From Candidatus Gastranaerophilales bacterium (GTDB taxonomy: Bacteria; Cyanobacteriota; Vampirovibrionia; Gastranaerophilales; Gastranaerophilaceae): 49,633 nt of DNA. The notes below the pieces were generated by a model. The model saw only the letters and a list, made by a program, of their open reading frames with translations, was not told the origin of the DNA and did not search any database. Positions 6,009-49,633 of the stretch are shown one piece after another. The translations under genes were made by a program, and so were the position numbers. Every line of letters begins with the position of its first letter. The first letter of the stretch is position 1. The DNA lies in NCBI GenBank assembly GCA_944326905.1, contig CALVFU010000009.1, positions 1-49,633 on the forward strand, given 5' to 3'.

Positions 6009-7382
6009 ATGGCTAAAGTTAAATCAAAATATGTTTGTCAGCAGTGCGGATACGAGAGTGCAGGGTATTTAGGCAGATGCCCTGAATGCGGGGCGTGGAG
6101 CAGTTTTGTGGAAGAGGTTACTAAGCAGCAAACAGCAAGCGAGCGTAAAGTTTTCACAGTATCTGATGATACTCCGCCGATTAAGGTTAATGATATAGTT
6201 ACTAACTCAGAAACCCGTTTTAAGACTAATATATCAGAATTTGACAGGGTATTAGGCGGCGGAATTGTACAAGGCTCAGTTATCTTAATAGCAGGCGACC
6301 CCGGAATAGGTAAGTCAACACTGCTTTTGCAAACCGGAGGAACTCTCTCTTCCATGGGAAGAAAAATTCTTTATATTTCTGCAGAAGAGTCTCTAAGCCA
6401 GATTAAATTGAGAGCTGAACGGCTTAAAGTTAATTCAGACAGTTTATACATATACTCCCAGACAAGTCTTGAGGCTATAAAACGCAGGATTGAAGAGAAC
6501 AAACCTGATTTGGTTATTATAGACAGTATTCAAGCAATTTATTCAGACGATATACAAAGCTCTGCCGGCAGCGTAAGCCAGATTAGAGAGTGCTGTAATT
6601 CGCTTATTAATATTGCTAAAGGTCAAAATATTGCAATAATTGTAATAGGACATGTTACCAAAGAGGGGAATATTGCAGGTCCTAAGGTGCTTGAACATAT
6701 GGTTGATGCAGTAATACAATTTGAGGGAGATAAGTATAAGCCGCATAGAATTTTACGTTCAATAAAAAATCGTTTTGGGAACACATCGGAAGTAGGTATT
6801 TTTGAAATGGAAGAAAACGGGCTGAGAGAAATAACTAATCCAAGCGAATTATTTATAAAGGACATAGATAGTGTACAGGCGCCTGGCAGTGTTACAATAG
6901 TTACAAATGAAGGTTCGCGTCCTTTACTTGTTGAAATTCAGGCGCTTGTTGGAACAACACCGTATCCGACACCCCGCAGAATTGCAAATGGGGTTGATAC
7001 AGGACGTGTACATCAAATTCTTGCAGTACTTGAGAAGCGTGTAGGGCTGAATCTTTCTAAACAGGACGTGTATGTAAATGTTATAGGCGGTATGGATATC
7101 ACGGAAACTGCTGCTGATTTAGGAATTGCGCTTGCTATAACAACTTGCGCCAGAGACATTATAATGGATAAATCAACTGCTATTGTCGGTGAAATAGGGC
7201 TTTCAGGCGAAATCAGAGCAGTTAGTAATATAGAAAAACGCATTATTGAAGCCCAAAAATTGGGATTTAAACGTATTATAATCCCTCAGTCCAATCATAT
7301 AAGCAAAGATATTCAAGGAATTGAAATAATTAAAGTTAAAAATATTCTTGATGCGTTTAATAAGGGACTTACAAAGGAGTAA
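6009..7382 (+). CDS. radA: DNA repair protein RadA (Sms)
   Basis: RadA is a RecA-like hexameric ATPase that drives branch migration of recombination intermediates. In order the protein shows a four-cysteine zinc finger (Cys10, Cys13, Cys24, Cys27), a Walker A motif GDPGIGKST (96-104), the RadA-specific KNRFG motif (about 254-258), and a C-terminal Lon-protease-like domain without the protease catalytic site. The length of 457 residues is normal. No Shine-Dalgarno precedes the ATG; the upstream bases are pure A/T with a TAAAAT 6 bp before it. The transcript is therefore possibly leaderless. It heads a compact operon with rsmE (2 bp gap) and cca. Confidence 0.95.
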   Translation: MAKVKSKYVCQQCGYESAGYLGRCPECGAWSSFVEEVTKQQTASERKVFTVSDDTPPIKVNDIVTNSETRFKTNISEFDRVLGGGIVQGSVILIAGDPGIGKSTLLLQTGGTLSSMGRKILYISAEESLSQIKLRAERLKVNSDSLYIYSQTSLEAIKRRIEENKPDLVIIDSIQAIYSDDIQSSAGSVSQIRECCNSLINIAKGQNIAIIVIGHVTKEGNIAGPKVLEHMVDAVIQFEGDKYKPHRILRSIKNRFGNTSEVGIFEMEENGLREITNPSELFIKDIDSVQAPGSVTIVTNEGSRPLLVEIQALVGTTPYPTPRRIANGVDTGRVHQILAVLEKRVGLNLSKQDVYVNVIGGMDITETAADLGIALAITTCARDIIMDKSTAIVGEIGLSGEIRAVSNIEKRIIEAQKLGFKRIIIPQSNHISKDIQGIEIIKVKNILDAFNKGLTKE

Positions 7383-47098: not shown

Positions 47099-49303
47099 AT
47101 GGTTACCCAGGTTGTGGATAATACAGCAATTGACGTGGCTGCGTTTATTAAAAATAATTATACGCCATATTATGGTGATGACAGTTTTCTAAGCGGTCCA
47201 ACCCAGAGAACACTGTACATGTGGAGTAAAGTCAGCGAATTAATGAAAGAAGAACACAAAAAAGGTGTTCTTGACGCTGATACTTCGACTCCGTCATCAA
47301 TTACATCTCATGGAGCAGGTTATATTGATAAAGATAATGAACTTATAGTCGGGCTCCAGACTGATGCTCCTCTTAAACGTGCTATTATGCCAAACGGCGG
47401 CTATAGAATGATTGAAGCGTCCTGCAAAGCATACGGGCTGCCGGTAGATAAAGAACTTAAGACTATTTATACTAAATATAGAAAAACTCATAATGATGGT
47501 GTTTTTGACGTATATACAGAGGCTATAAAAAAATGCCGCCATTCTGCAATTATTACAGGGCTGCCTGATGCATACGGCAGAGGCAGAATTATAGGCGACT
47601 ACAGGCGTGTAGCATTATATGGTATTGACAGACTTATTGAAGAAAAACAGAAAGACAAACTCTCTACTGAAAATCTTCCAATGACTGAAGATAATATAAG
47701 ACTGAGAGAAGAACTAAGCGAGCAAATCCGTGCTTTAAAAGATATGAAAGAAATGGCTTTGTTATACGGTATTGATATCAGCAAGCCGGCTGAGAGCTTC
47801 CAAGAGGCAGTACAGTTTACATACTTTGGCTACTTAGCTGCAATTAAAGACCAAAACGGAGCTGCGATGTCGTTAGGCAGAGTGTCAACTTTCCTTGATA
47901 TATACTCAGAAAGAGATCTTAAATCCGGCAAAATTACAGAAGAACAAGCACAAGAAATTATGGACGATTTCATAATTAAATTGAGAATGGTTCGATTCCT
48001 GAGAACACCTGAGTATAATGATTTATTCAGCGGTGACCCTGTATGGACTACCGAAAGTATCGGCGGAATGACTATGGACGGTAAAACGCTGGTTACTAAA
48101 AACTCGTTTAGAATGCTCCAGACATTAATCAACCTTGGACCGGCTCCTGAACCTAATATGACTGTTTTATGGAGTAAAGATTTGCCGAAAGGATTTAAAG
48201 ACTATTGTGCAAGAGTAAGTATTGAAACAAGTGCTGTTCAATACGAAAATGATGACCTTATGCGTGAATCTTTTGGAGATGATTATGCGATTGCCTGCTG
48301 TGTTTCACCTCTAATCATCGGTAAAGAAATGCAGTTTTTTGGCGCTCGTGCAAACCTTGCTAAAGCGCTCCTTTATACAATTAACGGTGGTGTTGATGAA
48401 AGAACAGGCGATAAAGTAGCAGACTTTGAGCCTATTACTGATGAATACCTTGACTATGATACTGTAATGAAAAAATTTGATAAAGTTATGGACTGGCTTG
48501 CATATACCTACGTAAGCGCTCTGAATATTATTCACTATATGCATGACAAGTATAATTACGAAAAAGCACAGCTGGCTCTTATGGACTCTAATGCTGTTCG
48601 TAAGCTTGGCTGCGGGATTGCAGGATTTAGCGTAGTAACAGACTCTCTTTCTGCAATAAAATATGCAAAAGTGAGAGTAATTAGAGAAAACGGTATAGCA
48701 AAGCACTTTGAAATAGAAGGCGATTATCCTAAATACGGAAATAATGATGACAGAGCTGATTCAATCGGTGTTGATTTAGTAAACCGCTTTATGTCCAAAA
48801 TCGAAAAAATCCAGACCTATAGAGGGGCAATTCCAACGCAATCTATTCTTACGATTACAAGTAATGTTGTGTATGGTAAGAAGACAGGAGACACCCCTGA
48901 TGGCAGAGTCGCCGGCGTCCCGTTCTCGCCTGGTGCAAACCCGTTTAATGGCAGAGATTGTAAAGGTGCACTGGCTTCGCTCTGTTCAGTTGCAAAACTT
49001 CCATTTAAGAATGCTAAAGACGGGATTTCAAATACCTTTAGCATTCTGCCTGAAACACTGGGCAAATCACAGGATGAGCAAATCAGCAACCTTACCGGAA
49101 TGATGGACGGGTATTTTGGTAAAGGTGCCCAGCATTTGAATGTAAACGTGCTTAATCGTGAAACACTTCAAGATGCAATGGAGCATCCTGAAAACTATCC
49201 GCAATTAACAATTAGAGTCAGCGGCTATGCTGTTAATTTCATTAAGCTTACAAGAGAACAGCAGTTGGATGTTATTAATAGGACATTCCACGCGTCAATA
49301 TAA
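47099..49303 (+). CDS. pflB: Formate C-acetyltransferase (pyruvate formate-lyase) PflB
   Basis: PflB splits pyruvate with CoA into acetyl-CoA and formate in anaerobic fermentation. It is a glycyl-radical enzyme. The active-site cysteine pair is Cys400-Cys401 in IACCVSP, and the radical site is Gly709 in RVSGYAV near the C-terminus. The 734-residue length is normal. The RBS AAAGGAGG is the strongest in the window and the promoter is near consensus, so high expression is likely. The activating enzyme gene pflA is not in the window; it may be elsewhere. A long perfect hairpin follows 4 bp after the stop codon. Confidence 0.96.
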
Positions 49304-49307
49304 GATA

Positions 49308-49345
49308 AATCCTGGCGTGTCAGTGTATACTGACACGCCAGGATT
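49308..49345 (+). terminator. Strong hairpin after pflB (no U tract)
   Basis: A perfect 17-bp stem, AATCCTGGCGTGTCAGT (49308-49324) with its complement at 49329-49345, has a GTAT loop. It begins 5 bases after the stop codon. No T tract follows on the plus strand, as with the hairpin after fabZ. Confidence 0.75.
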
Positions 49346-49378
49346 AAAGCAAATGTGAAAATATATAAAAACTAAGGG

Positions 49379-49407
49379 TTGACATTATCAGCGCAATGAG
49401 TTATAAT
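49379..49407 (+). promoter_or_regulatory. Consensus promoter of small RNA copy 1
   Basis: TTGACA (49379-49384), a 17-bp spacer and TATAAT (49402-49407) match the sigma-70 consensus completely. An A/T-rich stretch upstream (49358-49374), also conserved in copy 2, may act as an UP element. Confidence 0.88.
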
Positions 49408-49413
49408 ATAATT

Positions 49414-49468
49414 GAGCCACCTTACGTGAGGGTTGTGGTCCCTCAACCGGGGGTGGCTCACCCTTTTT
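49414..49468 (+). ncRNA. Predicted small RNA, copy 1 (about 55 nt)
   Basis: The predicted first base is G49414, 7 bp after the -10. Stem P1 pairs GAGCCACC (49414-49421) with GGTGGCTC (49452-49459). Inside it P2 pairs TGAGGG (49427-49432) with CCCTCA (49440-49445) around the loop TTGTGGT. ACCC and five T follow. GGGTG (49451-49455) can alternatively pair with CACCC (49459-49463) as a canonical terminator directly before the T run; the two folds exclude each other. No open reading frame fits. I know no RNA family that matches. Confidence 0.7.
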
Positions 49469-49543
49469 ATTCATATTTTGTTATTTTATAGGTCTAATCA
49501 TTATTATCTATCAACAAACAGGAAAATATATAAAAACTAAGGG

Positions 49544-49572
49544 TTGACATTATCAGCGAAATGAGTTATAAT
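49544..49572 (+). promoter_or_regulatory. Consensus promoter of small RNA copy 2
   Basis: TTGACA (49544-49549), 17 bp, TATAAT (49567-49572), identical to copy 1 apart from one base in the spacer. Confidence 0.88.
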
Positions 49573-49578
49573 ATAATT

Positions 49579-49633
49579 GAGCCACCTTACGTGAGGGGTT
49601 TGGTCCCTCAACCGGAGGTGGCTCACCCTTTTT
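49579..49633 (+). ncRNA. Predicted small RNA, copy 2 (reaches the window end)
   Basis: P1 (49579-49586 with 49617-49624) and P2 (49592-49597 with 49605-49610) are kept without change. The loop is GTTTGGT and the junction base at 49616 is A, which creates GGAGGT and removes one pair from the alternative terminator hairpin. The five T at 49629-49633 are the last bases available. Confidence 0.7.

Follow-up and report, generated by a model that had tools for sequence, protein, structure and literature searches.

Tandem hairpin RNA genes at a Gastranaerophilales contig end and their relatives, candidate RNA immunity genes for LPD3 and PBECR1 toxin domains

The window analysed here is a 49,633-nt stretch of DNA from Candidatus Gastranaerophilales bacterium (assembly GCA_944326905.1, contig CALVFU010000009.1, whole length), a member of the Gastranaerophilales (Melainabacteria/Vampirovibrionia, Cyanobacteriota), which are known gut bacteria of animals. 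At its right end, behind pflB, lie two copies of a small hairpin RNA gene, which we describe as a candidate RNA immunity gene. The original prediction, made from the window alone, had described twin 112-bp units with perfect TTGACA-17-TATAAT promoters, and this was borne out base by base: the units occupy 49357-49468 and 49522-49633, their starts are 165 bp apart, and their stems begin at 49414 and 49579. The repeat as a whole extends over 119 nt at 94% identity. Unit-to-unit comparison also gave exactly the four differences that had been counted, namely, 49394 C/A in the promoter spacer, 49433 T/G and 49435 G/T in the P2 loop, and 49451 G/A. Both units were predicted to fold into a stem P1 (GAGCCACC(TT)/..GGTGGCTC) and a stem P2 (GAGGG/CCCTC) with a 7-nt loop, with energies of -27.7 and -28.8 kcal/mol. 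Position 49451, previously read as an unpaired junction base, is paired in this fold, where the difference turns U-G into U-A in an extended P1. The contig (G000:C9) stops at base 49633 in the second unit copy, which does end at the window edge as had been stated; a contig end in a repeat copy can arise when an assembler meets a repeat. The features of this region are as follows.

47099..49303, + strand: pflB (formate C-acetyltransferase), outside the system; a 734-amino acid open reading frame (ORF), named after the original prediction and the activating-enzyme neighbour in relatives.
49308..49345, strand not assigned: perfect 17-bp inverted repeat, from its sequence a likely bidirectional terminator of pflB.
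49357..49370, + strand: conserved upstream element of unit 1, GAAAATATATAAAA, common to units of the genus.
49379..49407, + strand: sigma-70 promoter of RNA 1, TTGACA-17-TATAAT (-35 at 49379-49384, -10 at 49402-49407).
49414..49459, + strand: RNA 1, a 46-nt hairpin (predicted fold, model R2) of P1, asymmetric internal loop, P2 and loop UUGUGGU, followed by ACCC-T5.
49467..49493, - strand: toxin 3'-end remnant of nine codons between the unit copies, T-Y-K-I-T-K-Y-E-stop, resembling the ..YKMTKF(K)-stop of the intact G001 and G006 toxins.
49522..49535, + strand: conserved upstream element of unit 2.
49544..49572, + strand: sigma-70 promoter of RNA 2, TTGACA-17-TATAAT (-35 at 49544-49549, -10 at 49567-49572).
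49579..49624, + strand: RNA 2, a 46-nt hairpin (predicted fold, model R2) with loop GUUUGGU and a T5 that reaches the contig end.

The covariance-model search of related genomes proposed with the original prediction was carried out with a unit model, R2, which matched both window copies (E values of 7e-16 and 4e-15) and, elsewhere, units in same-genus genomes only, together with one chance-level match. Rfam, searched at gathering and at permissive thresholds, returned tRNAs only, with no RNA of this study near a gathering score, in agreement with the earlier statement that the units belong to no known family. Plasmid and phage records gave no match by DNA or by protein, and the viral contigs searched contained no relatives. 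The units of the same-genus genomes share the upstream element GAAAATATATAAAA..GGGTTG, behind which stands an RNA of either of two types. Directly downstream of them, tail to tail, lies a gene for a protein of 384-399 amino acids, in which a common N-terminal module and a glycine-rich region precede a C-terminal domain that varies. A shared leader module joined to variable C-terminal domains is the anatomy of polymorphic toxins, and we therefore refer to these putative toxins simply as toxins below. In G001, the toxin stop codon is about 5 bp from the RNA stem. Toxins ending in ..YKMTKF(K) pair with the window-type RNA, and those with ..YNIKPY.. pair with the second type. The setting after pflB had been given correctly, but pflB is only the place of insertion; in the sister genome G004, the RNAs and a toxin sit between pflB and pflA. 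In the window genome, pflA stands at the start of contig G000:C15 with no toxin in the 437 bp preceding it, and the window toxin is thus either lost or in the assembly gap.

LPD3 (PF18798) scored above the Pfam cut-off in L109, L199 and the matches of a class-wide search, and the window-genus members scored below it. The latter domains nevertheless belong to one alignable family of 41, and an AlphaFold model of the LPD3-type domain (predicted local distance difference test score 91.6) resembled viral polyvalent proteins with LPD3. From this alignment and model, the window-genus domain appears to belong with LPD3, and we call it LPD3-type. A BECR or ToxN fold for the LPD3 domain was found to be unsupported by comparison with PDB, with no ToxN among the top matches listed. 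In other members of the same chassis, LPD3 is replaced by PBECR1 (PF18809; L115, L110 and L184 above the Pfam cut-off), a predicted ribonuclease (RNase) (PMC5512222). The functions of LPD domains were termed elusive by their discoverers (Iyer et al. 2017, PMC5512222).

Behind nearly every LPD3 domain, the opposite strand carries a hairpin RNA directed towards the domain, together with a sigma-70 promoter; the surveys were made within the class, and the LPD3 domain comparisons mostly within the order Gastranaerophilales. Where the domain is C-terminal, as it is in the genus of the window, the RNA comes after the stop codon and lies outside the coding sequence; in proteins that have a further, C-terminal module, the RNA gene is antisense inside the ORF, in the linker directly behind the LPD3 domain. 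Promoters were scored with a simple hand-weighted consensus (maximum 9.8), and controls were scored with the same weights. Among loci that are related and thus not independent, a score of at least 9 was reached antisense behind the domain in 29 of 43, each with a 17-bp spacer, compared with 0/43 in the sense direction, 1/43 antisense over the upstream region and 2/26 for sister ORFs without the domain. The same arrangement appeared at unseen loci with Pfam LPD3 in other protein contexts, which were chosen without using the RNA and included another family of the order: all 10 examined had the promoter, with scores of 8.8-9.8 of 9.8, a spacer of 17 and a hairpin-forming stretch behind the domain. 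For PBECR1 domains in the same chassis, the antisense promoter was better than the sense one in 9/9, and the associated RNAs form a larger three-way junction of about 85-100 nt; two of three new PBECR1 loci follow the antisense-promoter rule, and the class-level locus L284 does not. At L033, L034, L037 and L038, in sister genomes, the -35 box lies within a GC palindrome (GCGAGGGGTTGAAAT..CCCTCGC) that is absent from the window copies; it may serve as an operator or mark a hot spot of recombination.

The RNA type follows the toxin subtype. RNA classes, which were assigned by hand, required 10 changes on the toxin-domain tree (minimum 9; shuffled mean 27.9). Because of the hand assignment, a test on raw similarity was added, in which RNA similarity tracked toxin similarity among divergent toxins (similarity <0.6; r = 0.42, p = 0.0005). 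The corresponding values for the DNA 200 nt further on were r = 0.03 and p = 0.25. At L126 (= L187), a single ORF contains two LPD3 domains of different subtype, each with its own RNA class behind it. The L126 locus also has tRNA genes near the toxin (1860-2804 and 6248-6319), a possible integration place.

The LPD3-associated RNAs that were folded have a common predicted plan, in which a long outer stem leads through a small, asymmetric internal loop to an inner stem of approximately 5 bp and an apical loop of 5-7 nt. In the best sampled class, 52 nt long with a loop ending in UGGU, 94% of cells were paired and 11 of 20 pairs showed double-sided changes, a level of covariation that none of 500 shuffles reached; the nested hairpin explains the covarying pairs. 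UGGU, the last four bases of the apical loop, is invariant across genera, whereas P1 drifts. Selection on a short structured RNA, as claimed in the original prediction, is thus supported by the 52-nt relatives, but for the window's 46-nt class alone (seven sequences) the covariation was not significant, and the structural case therefore rests on the former. Model R1, run on 288 genomes of the family, found the RNA in 18, of which 17 also have an LPD3 toxin (toxin present in 40/288; Fisher p = 1.3e-15). Genome-wide, 10 of the 21 strong class-1 RNAs from R1 end between -6 and +3 nt from the LPD3 domain end, always on the opposite strand. R1 gave no match in the window; the window class was assigned to the loop-UGGU type not on model score but on its loop, its position and where its partner toxin falls in the tree. 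The 5-bp stem and 7-nt loop recall a tRNA anticodon arm, and inspection by eye, with no formal test, gave no consistent anticodon pattern. The window RNAs are members of a large, unrecognised group of hairpin RNAs, and the original description is partly supported: a short structured RNA of no known family was right as far as it went, but the tie to LPD3 and PBECR1 toxin domains and the toxin remnant between the copies were missed.

Several RNAs were found without an intact matching toxin. At G165:C11, the RNA and its promoter are intact and the toxin is reduced to about ten codons; in G249, an intact RNA stands beside a truncated toxin domain; in G005, two window-type RNAs were found but no LPD3 toxin. 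In G004, a window-type RNA adjoins a second-class RNA and a second-class toxin. Intact RNAs without matching toxin form the pattern of orphan immunity genes, which accounts for the window copies; these are most likely orphan immunity RNAs or the RNA part of a locus that continues, with its toxin, beyond the end of the contig. Tandem RNA arrays of different or matching class occur near one toxin at L101 (G019:C1:368748-369066), L239 (G246:C1), L220 and L197, as would be expected, by analogy, for stacked immunity genes.

Other members of the protein family have a different neighbour. L082 (G000:C39) and L084 (G001:C31) are sister proteins with another C-terminal domain (..GEAHIYNAYIDxxGNLxxQIPDYYDF..), and most proteins of this kind have a gene for a membrane protein of roughly 280 amino acids behind them, a probable immunity protein. 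As this is the classical protein-immunity layout, an RNA in the same place is its natural counterpart. The G000:C39 sister proteins adjoin genes for a phage terminase large subunit and a tail-type protein, hinting at delivery by a phage-like particle. DUF6973 proteins with a VYVREYKRSDGTVVKAHWRS module near the C-terminus are encoded near class-2 RNAs (L037 644-1387 and L041 2989-3735). In G009 (L040, L045 and L046), a gene start recurs on several contigs with the same strong promoter and a G-run shortly behind the start codon, suggestive of a phase-variable gene family.

We consider it probable that the hairpin RNAs are RNA immunity (antitoxin) genes that are swapped together with the toxin domains. 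The sequences themselves display the structure, promoter and position of the RNA, the correspondence of toxin and RNA, and the retention of RNAs after toxin loss; from these we infer transcription, toxicity, direct RNA-protein binding and neutralisation. A strong, presumably constitutive promoter would give a hairpin RNA of 45-60 nt, which would recognise a single LPD3 toxin-domain subtype, neutralise it and so protect the producer, and the larger three-way-junction RNA would neutralise PBECR1 domains. The toxins would be polymorphic, built from a trafficking-like module that they have in common, a glycine-rich region and a toxin domain that varies. Since the RNA gene is convergent with the stretch that encodes the toxin domain and lies at its 3' end, domain and RNA could be swapped as a single cassette, also in proteins that have another module behind the domain. 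Where a toxin has disappeared or a different one has taken its place, the RNA may be retained as orphan immunity against kin. The wider picture, on which we lean with somewhat less assurance, is a polymorphic-toxin world in gut Gastranaerophilales in which RNAs take the place of immunity proteins. LPD3 toxins would be matched by hairpins specific to their subtype and PBECR1 RNases by three-way junctions, encoded antisense inside or directly behind the domain and recombining with it as one segment.

Some observations weigh against RNA immunity. The correspondence of toxin and RNA could arise in part from co-inheritance of one DNA segment. No clear promoter was seen at L099, L199 and L200, which encode near-identical toxins of one genus, or at L208. 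LPD3 has no known activity, and its AlphaFold model found no convincing fold match in PDB, for which reason we assign it no fold class. All loci come from metagenome assemblies, and a search of the window genome found no assembled LPD3 toxin.

The strongest competing explanation, although unlikely, is a cis-antisense regulator resembling type I systems, in which the convergent RNA pairs with the toxin mRNA or hinders its transcription and lowers expression with no protein binding. The RNA is indeed always convergent and often fully antisense inside the toxin ORF, and its promoter is strong. An antisense RNA and its target change together, however, and need no loop conservation, yet the loop UGGU stays constant while P1 varies; the RNA class tracks the toxin protein subtype, promoter and fold are intact in RNAs whose toxin is gone, and in the window's genus the RNA is outside the coding sequence. 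Two further explanations are very improbable. The tight one-to-one match of RNA type and domain would suit an RNA that, bound by the toxin domain, serves its action as cofactor or guide, but the toxin-less orphans and the tandem RNAs of non-matching class beside another toxin fit immunity better. A bidirectional terminator or an unrelated housekeeping small RNA merely beside toxins might explain the T-runs after several hairpins, which could end transcription; the RNA, however, follows LPD3 and PBECR1 domains rather than ORF ends, sits mid-ORF behind the domain, and sister ORFs that lack the domain seldom have a high-scoring promoter behind them. Hardly any weight is left for the view that the hairpin is an integron attC-like site, folded in DNA, by which toxin cassettes are moved, and that the promoter is incidental. 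Hairpins do stand where a swappable coding unit has its 3' end, and they form tandem arrays, but the consensus promoter has a fixed 17-bp spacing, hairpins within ORFs would need in-frame recombination, and both attC core halves (RYYYAAC and GTTRRRY) were present in 0/42 segments.

If RNA immunity of this kind is real, it would constitute both a new toxin-antitoxin type and a new form of interbacterial immunity, and would give the LPD3 domain a function. It would also be a case of overlapping coding, with a protein on one strand and its antidote RNA on the other, and would explain RNAs antisense in coding regions. The linkage of toxin and antidote through domain swapping would have a simple reason, and the many natural RNA-protein recognition pairs could serve studies of specificity.

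Immunity to polymorphic and other secreted toxins is generally credited to immunity proteins. Polymorphic toxins with such proteins (MuF, LXG, Rhs and contact-dependent inhibition systems) resemble the present loci in their conserved leader and variable C-terminal toxin, and in adjacent and orphan immunity genes, which are putative in the present case; here, by contrast, an RNA gene is proposed for this role, and it lies on the other strand, in many cases within the ORF of the toxin. An adjacent partner gene that tracks the toxin domain and has orphan copies is a pattern that, as far as the sequences indicate, the RNA gene shows and no protein gene does. Polyvalent phage proteins with LPD3 and PBECR domains (Iyer et al. 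2017, PMC5512222) share the same domains, and our model resembles viral LPD3 proteins; an RNA antitoxin is not mentioned in the searched text of that paper. In the open-licence papers searched, no account of an LPD3 domain with an RNA partner or of RNA immunity for polymorphic toxins was found. AbiF/RCd22 (Rfam RF03085) has an RNA antitoxin that acts in trans and binds the toxin protein (PMC12373285), but this RNA lies upstream, is co-transcribed with abiF and has two motifs, and the present RNAs have no Rfam match. Type III toxin-antitoxin systems (ToxIN, CptIN and TenpIN) likewise combine a small structured RNA, thought to bind the toxin, with a toxin gene, and tandem copies are possible. 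They form one operon of an upstream repeat RNA, a terminator and a downstream toxin, which cuts the RNA into pseudoknots (PMC5086642). The present RNAs, by contrast, lie behind the toxin domain on the other strand under their own promoter, outside any common operon; they are single hairpins, and tandem copies each have a promoter of their own. The toxin domain is LPD3 or PBECR1, and the LPD3 AlphaFold model, with no significant PDB match, does not place it in the ToxN/CptN/TenpN fold. We regard the system as a variant of the RNA-antitoxin kind that borders on a new category.
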